NCBI RefSeq assembly: GCF_018279165.1
Contig: NZ_CP047289.1
Span: 1,238,501 to 1,302,500, forward strand
Direction: 5' to 3'
Origin: Falsirhodobacter algicola
Lineage (GTDB): Bacteria > Pseudomonadota > Alphaproteobacteria > Rhodobacterales > Rhodobacteraceae
Length of the DNA: 64,000 nt
In this document: in pieces, positions 28,627 to 35,591 of the stretch
How positions within the stretch are numbered: position 1 is the first letter of the stretch
Layout of the letters: the number at the start of each line of letters is the position of its first letter
Notes under the pieces: generated by a model
What the model was told of the DNA's origin: nothing
Seen by the model: the letters and a program-made list of their open reading frames with translations, nothing else
Databases searched by the model: none
Translations under genes and position numbers: made by a program

Positions 28627-28641
28627 TTAACAATCGGTTAG
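28627..28641. promoter_or_regulatory. CtrA-like binding site in the fliF/fliL divergent promoter
   Basis: TTAA-N7-TTAG (spacer CAATCGG), one mismatch from the CtrA consensus TTAA-N7-TTAA. It is centred in the 118 bp between the fliF and fliL starts, the only AT-rich patch there. The same form occurs upstream of flagellin. Confidence 0.6.
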
Positions 28642-28687
28642 TGACCCCGGCGTTATGAACGAGCCAACGCAGAAAGGCGGAGGGATC

Positions 28688-29149
28688 ATGGCGGATATGG
28701 CCGTGGCGCAGGACGCGCCCAAGACACGCTCGAAAGGGCCGCTCCTCGTGGGGTTGGTGCTGGCGCTGGCGCTGGGGGGTGGGGGATTCTACGCCACCTA
28801 TGCCGGGCTGGTGCCGCTGCCCGCCCGCCATGCCTCGGTGGATCTTCCGGCCATCGCCTTCGTTCCGCTGGAACCGACGGTCATCTCGCTCGGCCGCGAA
28901 TCGGGGCGCCAGCATCTGCGCTTCACCGCCGAACTGGAGGTCGCGCCCGAATACGAGGCCGAGGTCGCGCTGCTGAAGCCGCGCGTTCTGGACGTGCTGA
29001 ACGGCTATCTCCGCGCCGTCTCGGTGGAGGAGTTGGAGGACCCGGCGGAATTGGTCCGCCTGCGGGCACAGATGCTGCGCCGGGTGCAGATGGTGACGGG
29101 CGAAGGGCGCGTGCGCGATCTTCTCGTCACCGAATTCGTGATCAACTGA
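28688..29149 (+). CDS. fliL: flagellar basal-body-associated protein FliL
   Basis: 153 residues: a short cytoplasmic N-terminus, one membrane helix at about 18-40 (GPLLVGLVLALALGGGGFYA), and a periplasmic FliL domain with FVPLEPTVISLG, LRFTAELEV and the C-terminal VRDLLVTEFVIN. FliL stabilises stator units around the motor. ATG 28688 has GGAGGG upstream. First gene of the rightward operon, 46 bp from the CtrA-like site. Confidence 0.93.
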   Translation: MADMAVAQDAPKTRSKGPLLVGLVLALALGGGGFYATYAGLVPLPARHASVDLPAIAFVPLEPTVISLGRESGRQHLRFTAELEVAPEYEAEVALLKPRVLDVLNGYLRAVSVEELEDPAELVRLRAQMLRRVQMVTGEGRVRDLLVTEFVIN

Positions 29150-29161
29150 CGGGGGCCGACG

Positions 29162-29455
29162 ATGGACGTGATTGCGGACATCCTGCTGGCCGCCGGTGCG
29201 CTTGGGGCGGCGATCTATTGCGCGGTCCTGTCGGCGCGGCTGAAGCGGTTCGCCTCGCTCGACAGTGGGATGGGCGGCGCGATCGCCATCCTTTCGGCCC
29301 AGGTGGAGGAGTTGAGCCGCGCCCTCACCACCGCGCAGGCCGTGGCCGGGCAACAGGCGGCGCATGTGACCGAAGTTTCGGCCCGGGCCGAGGCTGCCGC
29401 CAAGCGGCTGGAGCTTCTGGTCGCCTCGCTCCACGATCTGGAGGTGACGCCATGA
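29162..29455 (+). CDS. small membrane-anchored coiled-coil protein in the fliL-motE interval (DUF6468-like)
   Basis: 97 residues: one N-terminal transmembrane helix (DVIADILLAAGALGAAIYCAVL) followed by a helical, Ala/Glu-rich segment that looks like a coiled coil (AQVEELSRALTTAQ ... SARAEAAAKRLELLV). It resembles the DUF6468 proteins found beside fliL in alphaproteobacteria, but I am not certain of the family. It is coupled to motE by an ATGA overlap, so a role in stator or basal-body assembly is inferred. Confidence 0.75.
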   Translation: MDVIADILLAAGALGAAIYCAVLSARLKRFASLDSGMGGAIAILSAQVEELSRALTTAQAVAGQQAAHVTEVSARAEAAAKRLELLVASLHDLEVTP

Positions 29456-30000
29456 AGCCCGCACGGATCGGGGCGCTGGCGGTGCTGGCGCTGCTTCTGG
29501 CCTCCTCCGGGGCGTTGCGGCTGGGATCGGGGATCGGGGCGGCGCTGGCGCGCACGCCCGAACCCGCCGCCGCCGCGCCCGTGATCTGCCCCGCGACGCC
29601 CGCGGCGCTGGTGCAGGCCCTGAACGCGCGCGAAAGCCAAGTCGCCGTGCAGGAGGCCGCCTTGGCCCAACGTCAGGCCAGCCTCGACGCCGCCGCGACC
29701 GCGATACAGGACCGCATGGCCGCCCTCGCCGAGGCCGAGGCCCGGCTGTCGGACACGCTGGCGCGGGCCGACGGCGCGGCGGAAGGCGATCTCGCCCGGC
29801 TGACGGCCGTGTACGAGGCGATGAAGCCCAAGGATGCCGCCACCCTCTTCGGCACGATGGAGCCCGATTTCGCCGCGGGTTTCATCGGCCGGATGCGTCC
29901 CGACGCCGCCGGCGCCGTGCTGGCCGGCCTTCCGGCCGAACAGGCCTATGCCATCAGCGTGCTTCTGGCCGGGCGCAACGCGCTCGTCCCGAAGGAGTGA
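29452..30000 (+). CDS. motE: MotE-family periplasmic flagellar protein
   Basis: 182 residues: signal/anchor helix (residues 7-25), a coiled-coil region (residues about 58-115 with AQRQASLDAAATAIQDRMAA), and a C-terminal MgtE-N/FliG-middle-like domain (YEAMKPKDAATLFGTME ... AAGFIGRMRPDAAGAVLAGL). This arrangement is that of MotE, described in Sinorhizobium as the chaperone of the periplasmic motor protein MotC. A large periplasmic protein two genes downstream could be its client. Coupled to the preceding gene. Confidence 0.82.
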   Translation: MKPARIGALAVLALLLASSGALRLGSGIGAALARTPEPAAAAPVICPATPAALVQALNARESQVAVQEAALAQRQASLDAAATAIQDRMAALAEAEARLSDTLARADGAAEGDLARLTAVYEAMKPKDAATLFGTMEPDFAAGFIGRMRPDAAGAVLAGLPAEQAYAISVLLAGRNALVPKE

Positions 30001-30045: not shown

Positions 30046-30912
30046 ATGATCGGAATGATCGGGATCGCCGTGGTCTTCGTCATGGTGTTCGGCGGCTATG
30101 TCGTGGCCGGTGGAAAGCTGGGGGTGGTGATGCATGCCCTGCCCTATGAAATGGCGATGATCGGTGGCGCGGCCATCGGTGCGTTCCTTCTGGGCAACGA
30201 CATCGGCACGGTGAAGACGACGCTGCGCGACATCGGCAAGGTGTTCCGCGGCGCACGCTGGAAACCGGGCGACTATCAGGATCTGCTCTGCCTTTTGTTC
30301 GCGCTGGTGCGTCTGGCCCGCTCCAACCCCGTCGCACTGGAGGAGCATATCGAGGGGCCGGGGTCCTCCGCGCTCTTTGCGCGCTATCCGCGCATCGCCG
30401 CCGATCACGAGGCGGTGGATCTGATCTGCGACACGCTGCGCGCCGCCTCCATGAACTACGACGATCCCCATCAGGTGGAGGAGATGCTGGACAAGCGGAT
30501 GGAGGCTGCGGGCCATCACGCCCTCGCCTCCAGCCACGCGCTGCAATCCATGGCCGATGCGCTGCCCGCGCTTGGGATCGTGGCGGCGGTGCTGGGCGTC
30601 ATCAAGACGATGAGCGCGATCGATCAGCCGCCGGAGGTTCTGGGCGGCATGATCGGCGGCGCGTTGGTCGGTACGTTCCTCGGGGTGTTTCTGGCCTATG
30701 GCATTGTCGCCCCCTTCGCGACCCGGCTGAAGGCCGTCGCCGAAGAGGACGGCCATTTCTACATCCTGATCCGAGAGGTGCTGGTGGCGAACCTGCATGC
30801 CCATCCGGCGAATATCTGCGTCGAGGTCGGCCGCCAGAACACGCCCCATGACAAACGTCCCAGCTTCGCCGATATCGAAGGCGCCCTGCGCGCCGCGAAG
30901 GAGGCTGCGTGA
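30046..30912 (+). CDS. motA: flagellar stator protein MotA
   Basis: 288-residue proton-channel stator subunit with four membrane helices: IGMIGIAVVFVMVFGGYV, EMAMIGGAAIGAFLLG, LPALGIVAAVLGVIKTM (with the conserved proline that couples proton flow to torque) and GALVGTFLGVFLAYGIVAPF. The cytoplasmic loop carries charged residues for FliG contact. AGGAGG precedes ATG 30046. Its TGA overlaps the next ATG. Unusually there is no motB beside it. Confidence 0.96.
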   Translation: MIGMIGIAVVFVMVFGGYVVAGGKLGVVMHALPYEMAMIGGAAIGAFLLGNDIGTVKTTLRDIGKVFRGARWKPGDYQDLLCLLFALVRLARSNPVALEEHIEGPGSSALFARYPRIAADHEAVDLICDTLRAASMNYDDPHQVEEMLDKRMEAAGHHALASSHALQSMADALPALGIVAAVLGVIKTMSAIDQPPEVLGGMIGGALVGTFLGVFLAYGIVAPFATRLKAVAEEDGHFYILIREVLVANLHAHPANICVEVGRQNTPHDKRPSFADIEGALRAAKEAA

Positions 30913-32822
30913 TGCGCTGGCTTCTGGCGGTCCTTCTGATGAGCGGCGCGGCGCAGGCCGATGTCCTCGTCCGCTCGGGCGAGCATGGCAGCTACACCCG
31001 CCTCGCCTTCGATCTACCGACGGCGCGGGCGTGGAGGATGGGACGTGTGGCGGACGGCTATGCCCTGCGGCTCGATCCCGCGGTCACGCTCGATATGTCG
31101 CGCATCTATCGCCGGATCGGGCGCGGGCGGATCGCCGGGGTCGGGGTGGATGCTGCGACAGGCGATGTCCTTCTGCGGCTTGGCTGCGCCTGCTATGCCA
31201 CGGCCTTCGAGAGCCGTCCGGGCACCGTGGTGATCGACGTGCATCCCGGCGCGGCCAAACCGGGATCGCGCTTCGAGCTGTCGCTCGATCCGCCGCCCCC
31301 GCCGAAGCCGGTGGTGCGGACCGCCGGCTACGATTGGACCGACATCACCCGCACGCCGCCGGATCTGCCGATGGCCCCCGCGCTCGATCCGTTCCGCGAT
31401 GCGGTGCTGCGCCAGCTTGCGGCGGGCGCGGCGCGGGGCGTCGTCGATATGGTGGACCGCCCGCCGCCTTTGCCGCCCCTTCCCCTGCCCGAACAGGTCC
31501 GCATCGCCGAAGAGCCGGGCTTCGTCGCCGATCCCGATCAGCCGCTGACCACCGACGGGCTGGCCTGCATTCCGGACGCCGACCTCGCTTTGGGCGATTG
31601 GGGCGCGGACGGCCCCGCTGCACTGACGCTGGCCAGCGGCCGCGGCGGGCTGGAGGGGGAGTTCGACCGCCCCGACCCGGAGGCCGTGACCCGCGCGATC
31701 CGCTATCACCTGTTCCTCGGTTTCGGGGCGGAGGCGCGGCAGATCGCGCAAGTCTATGCGCCGAACGCCGAAGGCCGGGCGCTCTGGTCCGATCTTGGGC
31801 ATCTGGTCGATGCCGAGGAGGCGACGGCGGGCATCCTGCCCCCGATGGCCGGTTGCGACGGGGCGGCCGCGCTCTGGGGCATCCTGTCCCTGCCCCGCCC
31901 GCAGCCCGGCGCCCCCGAGAATGCGGGCGCCGCGCTTCAGGCCTTCACCGCCCTGCCGCAGCATCTGCGCCGCGACATCGGCCCGATGCTGGTGGAACGG
32001 TTCACCGCGCGGCATGACGACGCCTCGGCCATGCGGGTGCGCGATGCAATCCTTCGGGCCGAACCCGCCCCCGATGCGCCCCTGCGCACGCTGACCGCCG
32101 CTCCGGGGGCCGAGGGGGACAGCGCGCTGGCCGCCATCGTCGCCGAAGGCGGACGCGACACCGACGAGGCGCGGATCACGCTTGCGGACCGGCGGCTCAG
32201 CGCGCGCCAACCGGTGGACGAGCCGACACGCCTTGCCCTAGAGGCGCTGCTGCACGAAGCGCGCGGCGGCCCGGACGAGGCACGTCTGGCGCGCCTCGTG
32301 GCCCTTGCCCGCGCCGCGACGCAGGATTTCGACACCGCCTTCGCCGAGGCACCGGCTTCCACCGAAGCCGAGCTTTGGGCATGGCTGGCCGAGGCGGGGG
32401 GCGATGACGCGATCCTGACCCATGGCGTGCTGGCGGACGGGACGGCCCGCCCGATCGTCCCGCGCGAGGTGCGGCTTGCGATGGCCCGCCGCCTGACGGA
32501 TCTGGGCCTGCCCGATCCCGCCCTTCGCTGGCTGGACACAGACCCGGCTGCCGCGCCGGAAGACGAACGCCTGATCGCCGCCCGCGCGCATCTGGCCCGG
32601 CAGGACGGCCTTGATGCGCAGCGATGGCTGGGGGGACTGGACACGGCGGAGGCGACCGCGCTGCGCACCGCTGCCGCGCGCCAGCTTGCCGGCCCCAGTG
32701 CCGAGGTATCGGTACCCACCGTCGCGCCTGCGCAGCCGATGACGCCGCTGGCACAGGGGCGCGCGCTGACCGCCGATTCCGATGCCGTGCGCCAACAGAT
32801 TGAGGCGCTTCTGACACGCTAA
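30912..32822 (+). CDS. large periplasmic flagellar-cluster protein, MotC-like candidate with AMIN-like N-terminus
   Basis: 636 residues. Sec signal MMRWLLAVLLMSGAAQA. Residues about 18-115 look like an AMIN-type beta domain (YTRLAFDLP at the start, GTVVIDVHPG at the end), a fold that binds peptidoglycan in AmiC and PilQ. A proline-rich linker (PPPPPKP, PPPLPPLPLP) follows, then a long Ala/Leu/Arg-rich helical region of repeat character to residue about 600. It follows motA with a TGATG overlap, downstream of motE. By position and export it could be the counterpart of MotC; sequence proof is lacking. Confidence 0.7.
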   Translation: MRWLLAVLLMSGAAQADVLVRSGEHGSYTRLAFDLPTARAWRMGRVADGYALRLDPAVTLDMSRIYRRIGRGRIAGVGVDAATGDVLLRLGCACYATAFESRPGTVVIDVHPGAAKPGSRFELSLDPPPPPKPVVRTAGYDWTDITRTPPDLPMAPALDPFRDAVLRQLAAGAARGVVDMVDRPPPLPPLPLPEQVRIAEEPGFVADPDQPLTTDGLACIPDADLALGDWGADGPAALTLASGRGGLEGEFDRPDPEAVTRAIRYHLFLGFGAEARQIAQVYAPNAEGRALWSDLGHLVDAEEATAGILPPMAGCDGAAALWGILSLPRPQPGAPENAGAALQAFTALPQHLRRDIGPMLVERFTARHDDASAMRVRDAILRAEPAPDAPLRTLTAAPGAEGDSALAAIVAEGGRDTDEARITLADRRLSARQPVDEPTRLALEALLHEARGGPDEARLARLVALARAATQDFDTAFAEAPASTEAELWAWLAEAGGDDAILTHGVLADGTARPIVPREVRLAMARRLTDLGLPDPALRWLDTDPAAAPEDERLIAARAHLARQDGLDAQRWLGGLDTAEATALRTAAARQLAGPSAEVSVPTVAPAQPMTPLAQGRALTADSDAVRQQIEALLTR

Positions 32823-32893
32823 CGAAATCGAAAGACTCGCGGGGGCAGGATGGGCGGTGAAGCGGCCAAGCCGCGCGATGGCGGGTGAAACCC

Positions 32894-33538
32894 ATGATGC
32901 GGATCTTTCTGGCGCTTGCCGTGATTCTGGCCCCGGCCGCCGCATGCGCGATGCAGGATCCCGCCGTCCTGTGCGAAAACGCGGCCGCCGATGCCGCGCG
33001 CCGCGTGGGCGTGCCGGTCGATGTGATGATGGCGCTGACGCTGGCCGAAACGGGGCGTCAATCGGGCGGGCGTCTGCGCCCGTGGCCTTGGGCGATCAAC
33101 CGCGGCGGCGAGGGGGCTTGGTTCGCCTCGCAGGCCGAAGCCATGGCCTTTGCCGAAACCTCGCTGCGCGAAGGGCGGCGCAATTTCGACATCGGCTGCT
33201 TTCAGATCAATCACCGCTGGCACGCGGATGGTTTCCCGAACCTCGCAGCGATGTTCGACCCCGAGACGAACGCCCTCTATGCCGCGCGTTTCCTGCGCCA
33301 GCATTACGACCGGACGGGCGATTGGGCGCAGGCCGCAGGTGCCTACCACTCGCTGACACCCGAATTCGCCGACCGCTACATGCAGCGTTTCGCCGCCCTG
33401 CGCCGGGGCGAAGGCAGCGCGCCCGTCATGCCTGCCGTCGCGCGCCTCAACGCCTTTCCGCTGCTGAATGGCGGGCGCGGCCATGCCGGATCGCTGGTGC
33501 CGCTGGGATCGGCCGCCCGCCGCCTGATCGGAGACTGA
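32894..33538 (+). CDS. soluble lytic transglycosylase of the flagellar cluster (SltF-like)
   Basis: 214 residues: signal peptide (MMRIFLALAVILAPAAACA) and an SLT/lysozyme-like domain with catalytic Glu52 in LTLAETGRQ, the substrate-groove motif NFDIGCFQINHRWH, and AAGAYHSLTPEFADRYM. In Rhodobacter sphaeroides a similar enzyme, SltF, opens peptidoglycan for the rod because FlgJ lacks its own muramidase domain; here too FlgJ is a single short domain. Start could be ATG 32894 or GTG 32885, three codons earlier. It lies two bases before flhA. Confidence 0.88.
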   Translation: MMRIFLALAVILAPAAACAMQDPAVLCENAAADAARRVGVPVDVMMALTLAETGRQSGGRLRPWPWAINRGGEGAWFASQAEAMAFAETSLREGRRNFDIGCFQINHRWHADGFPNLAAMFDPETNALYAARFLRQHYDRTGDWAQAAGAYHSLTPEFADRYMQRFAALRRGEGSAPVMPAVARLNAFPLLNGGRGHAGSLVPLGSAARRLIGD

Positions 33539-33539
33539 G

Positions 33540-35591
33540 ATGACCCTGCGCAGCCTTTACCAGCCGACGGTCCTGATGGCGCTGGCGCTGACGGCGATCG
33601 TCGTGATGATGATCCTGCCCGTCCCCGCTTGGATGCTGGACATGGGCCTTGCGCTGTCCTTCGCGCTGGCGATCCTGATGCTGACGGTGACGCTGTTCAT
33701 CGAACGCCCGCTCGATTTCTCGGCCTTTCCGACGGTGCTGCTGGCCTCGCTGATGCTGCGCCTTGCGCTCAATGTCAGCTCGACCAAACTGATCATCGGA
33801 CAGGGCCATACCGGCACCGCCGCCGCCGGCCATGTGATCGAAGGGTTCGCCAATTTCATCATGAACGGCAACCTCGCGCTTGGGATCGTGGTCTTCTGCG
33901 TGCTGCTGATCGTCAACTTCGTCGTCATCACCAAAGGCGCGGGCCGCATGGCCGAGGTGGGGGCGCGCTTTGCCCTCGACGGGATGCCCGGCAAGCAGTT
34001 GGCGATCGACGCCGACATGGCCGCCGGTGCCATCGACCATGCCGAGGCGAAGGCCCGGCGCGAACGGGAATTGGCGGAGACGACCTTCTTCGGCGCGCTC
34101 GATGGGGTGTCGAAATTCGTAAAGGGCGATGCCGTCGCGGGGCTGCTGATCACCGCGCTGAACATCGTGGTCGGCCTTGGCGTCGGGATCGGGGTGCATT
34201 CCATGGCCCCGGGCGAGGCGCTGCGCACCTATGCCGTGCTGACGGTCGGCGATGGTCTGGTGGGGCAGATCCCGGCGGTCCTCATCTCCATCGCGGCGGC
34301 GCTCTTGCTGACGCGGGGCGGCGCGACGGGGGCGGCGGATGTCGCGTTCTTCCGCCAGCTTGGCCGCTATCCGGCGGCGCTTGGTACGGTGGCGGCGCTG
34401 ATGGCGGCCTTTGCGGTGGTGCCGGGCCTGCCCTTCATTCCGTTCATGGCCGGGGCGCTGGCGCTAGCCGCCGCCGCATGGGCCGGGTATCGCCGCGCCG
34501 CGATCCCCGCCCCCGTGCCGGAGCCGGAGGTTCCGGCCGCCGCGCGCCCCCTTGGCGATGTTCTGGATTTCGACGACATCCATATCGAATTCGCCTCGGA
34601 CCTCGTGCCCTTGGTGCTGGACCCGGCCACCGGGATGGACGCGCGCATCACCTCCATGCGGCTGCATATGGCGACGGCCTTCGGCCTGATCCTGCCCGAA
34701 ATGCGCCTGACGGATGAACCGAGCCTGCCGCCCGGCACCTACCGCATCCGCCTGCAGGGCGTGGAGAAGGCGCGGGACCGGTTGCAGCCCACGCGCGTTC
34801 TGGTGCTGACTTCCGAGGCCATTCCCGCCCCGCCGGGAGAGGATGTGCGCGAGCCGGTCTATGGCGCGCCCGCCCGTTGGATCGACCGCGCCCGGCAGGA
34901 GGACGCTGCCTTTGCCGGTCTGACCGTCGTTTCCCCCGCCGAGGTGCTGGCGACGCATCTGCTGGAGGTGCTGCGCGCCAACCTCGCCCGGCTTCTGACG
35001 CTGAAGGGGCTGCGCCGCCTGCTGGACGAATTCGTGAACCTCTCCGATCCCGTCCGGGCCGCAGCCAACCGGCGCCTTCTGGACGAGCTTGTGCCCGACA
35101 AGGTGCCGGTCGATCTGCTCTTGCAGGTGCTCCGCCTCCTGCTGGAGGAGCGGGTGTCGATCCGCAACCTGCCCCTGATCCTCGAGGCCGTGGCCGAGGC
35201 CCGCGCCCTGCATGCCCCCGAAGCCGTGTGCGAGCATGTGCGTCAGCGGCTCGGCTTCCAGATGGTCGCCGAAATCCGCCGCGCCGATGGGACGATCCCG
35301 CTGATCCAACTGGCCCCGGAATGGGAGCAGGCCTTCGCGCGGCATCAGATGGATGGCGGGCAGAACGTCGCGCTGCCGCCCGATCTCTTTGCACGGCTCG
35401 CGGCGGGGCTGACGGACAAGCTGAACCGCGCGGCCGAGAATGGGGTGCAGCCCGCCCTCATCACCTCGGCGGCGCGGCGGCGCTTCTTGCGCACCGTCGT
35501 CGCCGCCAAGGGCTTCGGCGCGCCCGTCCTCTCCTTCGAGGAGATCGGGCTGGAGGGGCGGCCCTCCATGGTTGGCGTGGTGCCGCCATGA
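33540..35591 (+). CDS. flhA: flagellar type III export protein FlhA
   Basis: 683 residues. Eight membrane helices occupy roughly residues 10-320, with the conserved cytoplasmic loop (GMPGKQLAIDADMAAGAI, the FHIPEP-type signature) and a large cytosolic domain from about 345 to the end that forms the export docking ring. The sequence GDGLVGQIPAVLISIAAALLLTR is typical. It overlaps fliR by four bases (ATGA). Confidence 0.97.
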   Translation: MTLRSLYQPTVLMALALTAIVVMMILPVPAWMLDMGLALSFALAILMLTVTLFIERPLDFSAFPTVLLASLMLRLALNVSSTKLIIGQGHTGTAAAGHVIEGFANFIMNGNLALGIVVFCVLLIVNFVVITKGAGRMAEVGARFALDGMPGKQLAIDADMAAGAIDHAEAKARRERELAETTFFGALDGVSKFVKGDAVAGLLITALNIVVGLGVGIGVHSMAPGEALRTYAVLTVGDGLVGQIPAVLISIAAALLLTRGGATGAADVAFFRQLGRYPAALGTVAALMAAFAVVPGLPFIPFMAGALALAAAAWAGYRRAAIPAPVPEPEVPAAARPLGDVLDFDDIHIEFASDLVPLVLDPATGMDARITSMRLHMATAFGLILPEMRLTDEPSLPPGTYRIRLQGVEKARDRLQPTRVLVLTSEAIPAPPGEDVREPVYGAPARWIDRARQEDAAFAGLTVVSPAEVLATHLLEVLRANLARLLTLKGLRRLLDEFVNLSDPVRAAANRRLLDELVPDKVPVDLLLQVLRLLLEERVSIRNLPLILEAVAEARALHAPEAVCEHVRQRLGFQMVAEIRRADGTIPLIQLAPEWEQAFARHQMDGGQNVALPPDLFARLAAGLTDKLNRAAENGVQPALITSAARRRFLRTVVAAKGFGAPVLSFEEIGLEGRPSMVGVVPP

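Follow-up and report, generated by a model that had tools for sequence, protein, structure and literature searches.

An ortholog of the flagellar protein MotK with a predicted AMIN-type fold in Falsirhodobacter algicola

The motK Gene and Its Operon

The window analysed here, a stretch of 64,000 nucleotides from Falsirhodobacter algicola (contig NZ_CP047289.1, positions 1,238,501 to 1,302,500), contains a flagellar gene cluster in which all genes lie on the same strand in the order fliL-pflI-motE-motA-motK-SLT-flhA (Table 1). The reading frame of motK runs from the ATG at 30912 to the stop codon at 32820-32822 and encodes 636 residues, as the sequence-only reading of this DNA had described it. 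That reading had also proposed translational coupling with motA, and the arrangement is consistent with it: the TGA stop of motA (30910-30912) and the ATG of motK share one base (TGATG). The gene had further been placed just after motE; motE is indeed nearby in the cluster, but motA intervenes and it is motA that motK directly follows. A genome search found the gene in single copy in F. algicola. Since homologs were present in 83 of the 120 sampled genomes of the family, with no internal stops in frame, and since in each of the 30 best-scoring homologous loci, which were fetched, the gene directly adjoins motA on its 3' side, motK is a real gene and not a chance open reading frame.

The product of motE, which contains one cysteine (C46), matched MgtE_N slightly below the cut-off (E = 3.9e-5) and the NCBIfam FlbB collar family below the cut-off (E = 4.3e-6), while a Pfam scan of the 97-residue PflI homolog gave no match. 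A lytic transglycosylase gene of the SLT type stands between motK and flhA in F. algicola, in Cereibacter sphaeroides and in most of the fetched family loci, so that wall-opening and motor-scaffold genes travel together. The cluster lacks motB, as had been noted earlier: a search of the genome for MotB_plug gave a single match (G000:C1:1352652-1352810), which lies outside the window, about 50 kb past its end. This sole motB is found about 80 kb from motA, next to a gene of the flgE type; it and an exbB/tolQ-like gene are divergently oriented.

Upstream of the operon, the divergent fliF/fliL promoter contains TTAACAATCGGTTAG, which differs by one mismatch from TTAA-N7-TTAA. We call this site CtrA-like because identical 15 bases occupy the corresponding position of the C. 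sphaeroides fliF/fliL promoter (L037:573); in that species the fliL2 operon is published to be under CtrA control; a scan of the window with a stricter CtrA motif that includes a trailing C returned one unrelated site, a number near chance level.

Table 1. Features of the motK region of F. algicola, in window coordinates.
Feature	Position	Strand	Basis
CtrA-box-like site	28627..28641	none	TTAACAATCGGTTAG; divergent fliF/fliL promoter, 5' of the operon
fliL	28655..29149	+	Pfam FliL, E = 6.7e-15; 61% identity to C. sphaeroides
pflI homolog, 97 aa	29162..29455	+	56% identical to the C. sphaeroides gene in the pflI position
motE (FlgY/FlbB-type E-ring protein), 182 aa, exported	29452..30000	+	59% identity to the 185-aa MotE of C. 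sphaeroides
motA (stator)	30046..30912	+	NCBIfam TIGR03818 MotA1 over its cut-off (348 bits); 76% identical to MotA2 of C. sphaeroides
motK	30912..32822	+	636 aa; 38% identity to C. sphaeroides MotK over 569 columns, same operon position
motK signal peptide, residues 1-16	30912..30959	+	MRWLLAVLLMSGAAQA, read by eye; matches the 24-residue one of C. sphaeroides
Modelled AMIN-like beta domain, residues 16-124	30957..31283	+	AlphaFold2; best PDB matches are the AMIN domains of AmiC and PilQ
Proline-rich low-confidence linker, about residues 125-217	31284..31562	+	pLDDT below 50 at 132-153 and 187-206
TPR-like helical solenoid, about residues 218-593	31563..32690	+	Full-length model, TPR matches
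SLT-type lytic transglycosylase gene	32885..33538	+	Pfam SLT, E = 8.2e-6, above cut-off; sltF in Phaeobacter inhibens
flhA	33540..35591	+	Sole FHIPEP match in the genome, 702 bits

Identity of the Protein

The gene is motK, the ortholog of the C. sphaeroides gene. The BLASTP alignment of the two proteins reaches 287 bits (E = 2e-92), and the operon neighbours match those of C. sphaeroides in identical order, with 54-78% identity; orthology and synteny are both established by the present analysis. As the C. sphaeroides reference we take genome G051, which was recognised by published features of MotK and MotE together with the match of a reaction-centre L chain. This L chain, that of R. sphaeroides, matches G051 at 100%. 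In G051, MotK has 652 residues and a 24-residue signal peptide, its gene carries single HincII, ClaI and EcoRV sites, and MotE has 185 residues, all as in the 2024 description of the Fla2 protein MotK by Velez-Gonzalez et al., who reported the operon fliL2-pflI-motE-motA2-motK (PMC10954123).

The two proteins share a signal peptide, putative in F. algicola, the AMIN-like N-terminus, the proline-rich linker and the helical C-terminal part, as well as the position in the operon, the upstream CtrA-like site and all four cysteines. They differ in that the F. algicola copy is slightly shorter (636 versus 652 residues) and that the C-terminal 60-100 residues are poorly conserved between them; judged by the count of FlhA, F. 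algicola has one flagellar system and C. sphaeroides two. Scans of the single F. algicola protein with Pfam, NCBIfam and PHROGs gave nothing above cut-off, and sequence searches of the PDB with it returned only chance or generic repeat-protein matches. The F. algicola protein is an ordinary new member of its family; the family, its MotE partner and the AMIN reading had all been published before, the family and the AMIN reading in 2024.

Domain Structure

The N-terminus of MotK, MRWLLAVLLMSGAAQA/D, looks by eye like a Sec-type signal peptide, so that the protein reads as exported to the periplasm. For the part that follows, the sequence-only reading had suggested an AMIN-like first domain, and the predicted structure supports it. 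AlphaFold2, used without templates on an alignment of 31 family sequences, modelled residues 16-124 as a domain of eight strands with a pLDDT of 93.6 and a pTM of 0.86, and the modelled folds of this domain and of the helical part are established here at the level of prediction. A Foldseek search with this model gave AmiC first (E = 0.008) and PilQ second (E = 0.026), both with modest E-values. In structural alignment (VIA), the model superimposed on PilQ (3jc8) with Z = 11.2 over 99 residues at 3.0 Å and on AmiC (4bin) with Z = 10.9 over 97 residues at an rmsd of 2.4 Å, the 97 residues being exactly the AMIN part of AmiC; the first row of another fold came at Z = 7.5. Comparison with the AmiC and PilQ AMIN domains had been put forward as a check of this suggestion, and these two match the model better than any other entry of the PDB. 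The small heat-shock alpha-crystallin fold was also considered for this domain and ranked below AMIN: its Z was at most 7.5 with about 70 residues aligned, whereas AMIN domains reached 9-11 with 92-99 residues aligned.

With the domain alone as query, 23 of the 31 family members weakly matched the Pfam family AMIN-like and 4 of the 31 matched AMIN. The F. algicola protein itself scored 12.8 bits against Pfam AMIN/AMIN-like, below the cut-off of 27, for which reason we speak of an AMIN-like fold and not of a member of Pfam AMIN. At the level of the predicted fold, residues 16-124 are an AMIN-type domain: they share the AMIN fold of AmiC (4bin) and PilQ (3jc8, 4aqz) over 97-99 residues with Z of 9-11, but at 11-19% identity, and MotK has neither an amidase nor a secretin part. 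Judging from this fold, which is also the ground given in the literature, peptidoglycan is the probable support of the domain. Another use of the same domain, compatible with the identity of the protein as MotK, would be as a protein-protein module that contacts FliL, the stators or other components of the motor instead of peptidoglycan, a possibility that we find doubtful but worth keeping in mind.

The full-length model (pLDDT 86.5) places a disordered proline-rich linker after this domain and then the TPR-like solenoid; the length of the linker is very variable among homologs (alignment columns 150-500). Mature MotK contains four cysteines (C92, C94, C219 and C315). The two in the helical part, C219 (31566-31568) and C315 (31854-31856), are invariant in all 31 sequences. 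The CxC motif of the AMIN-type domain (C92/C94, 31185-31193) has both cysteines in 26 of the 31 sequences and neither in the other five, so that the pair is never half lost, and in two homologs the spacing is CxxC. Five independent losses were considered at first and dropped since two loss events suffice on the tree, which makes the retention or loss of the cysteines as a pair suggestive and not strong. The simplest reading of the cysteine pairs is that they form disulfides; our literature search found no report of either the helical pair or the CxC motif in MotK.

MotK, MotC and the Spoke Protein PflA

In C. sphaeroides, mutants of motK and motE carry flagella that do not rotate, and MotK is a periplasmic protein that binds MotE and MotB2 (PMC10954123). 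It is located at the flagellated pole, where its placement requires stator proteins. MotE is unstable and degraded without MotK, whereas MotK is stable without MotE. These data bear on the earlier proposal that the large periplasmic protein of the window is the natural client of MotE, known in Sinorhizobium as the chaperone of MotC. The part naming MotE as partner stands, as the C. sphaeroides ortholog binds it; the protein is however MotK and not MotC, and the chaperone-client model does not fit, because in C. sphaeroides it is MotE that depends on MotK for its stability and not the reverse. Like MotK, MotC of Sinorhizobium meliloti is a TPR-rich protein of the periplasm that partners MotE, and the literature describes it as needed for rotation; a review of 2026 regards the two as homologs despite their great divergence. 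The same review gives MotC no AMIN domain, whereas the window protein has an AMIN-type one; from this description of MotC and the direct orthology with MotK, we consider it very improbable that the F. algicola protein is a MotC chaperoned by MotE as in Sinorhizobium.

Recent work groups MotE with FlgY and FlbB as an E-ring protein and MotK-type proteins with the PflA spokes; given this placement in the E-ring, MotE probably serves MotK as a ring partner rather than as a chaperone alone. The C. jejuni spoke protein PflA (PMC11870540) resembles MotK, as modelled here, in its AMIN-type beta domain, loop and TPR solenoid, and in being the partner of a MotE-type ring protein, FlgY. In our full-length Foldseek search, chain K of 9hmf, the C. 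jejuni flagellar periplasmic scaffold, ranked sixth; its length (773 residues) indicates that this chain would be PflA. The alignment covers the whole length but is weak (E = 5.1e-3, TM 0.18), sequence similarity between PflA and MotK was not detected, and the PflB and cage of C. jejuni are not known from F. algicola.

Proposed Role in the Flagellar Motor

We propose, with a probability of about 0.88, that MotK is a periplasmic motor scaffold that serves the stators through its AMIN-type domain and TPR-like solenoid. The protein would be secreted to the periplasm, where these two parts would form a scaffold of the flagellar motor and would recruit, position or activate stators; its loss would then stop rotation while filament assembly continued. 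MotK would in this manner link the E-ring, the stators and perhaps peptidoglycan, this last step being drawn from the fold. We infer the binding of peptidoglycan, the spoke-like arrangement and the transfer of the C. sphaeroides findings to F. algicola. A more far-reaching version seems unlikely to us as a whole: a CxC disulfide would lock the AMIN-type domain, which would contact another motor part and not peptidoglycan, MotK and MotE would form the long-known alphaproteobacterial E-ring and spokes, and the variable proline-rich linker would set the distance to the stators.

A different emphasis comes from P. inhibens, in which a 2025 screen found the uncharacterised motility protein CP4 (PGA1_c35690), whose insertion mutants are non-motile (PMC12363192). 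Its gene occupies the same slot, in the order fliL-CP2-CP3-motA-CP4-sltF-flhA, and by gene order CP4 is probably MotK, although that paper does not mention MotK in its text; the same order suggests that CP2, CP3 and CP4 (PGA1_c35660, c35670 and c35690) are PflI, MotE and MotK. The CP4 mutant has a reduced flagellar exoproteome (PMC12363192), on account of which MotK may possibly act in assembly as well as in rotation. That it would be mainly a factor for the assembly of hook and filament, and not a scaffold for stators, appears quite improbable to us, even if the CP4 mutant secreted fewer flagellar proteins, as FliC, FlgE and FlgK were still secreted by this mutant and the motK mutants of C. 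sphaeroides keep flagella, which do not turn. No flagella were observed on the CP2 and CP3 mutants (PMC12363192), in contrast to C. sphaeroides, whose motE mutant is flagellated.

Distribution and Significance

Among the 120 sampled genomes of the family, the FlhA scores fall into two classes, separated by a boundary drawn by eye, and the FlhA of F. algicola belongs to the lower-scoring one. A motK homolog was found in 82 of the 91 genomes of this class and in one of the 29 genomes that have only the other class or none, the single match there being short and weak; related genomes in these counts are not independent. The genomes of the F. algicola class in which motK had no match are G008, G023, G028, G039, G054, G069, G098, G099 and G113, and these nine absences may reflect incomplete assembly, divergence or true loss. 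Across the family, MotK goes with a single class of flagellum, which is the vertically inherited one of CtrA type. These results add another genus to the range of a motor component that was discovered only recently, and the gene order offers names for three so far uncharacterised proteins of P. inhibens, CP2, CP3 and CP4.
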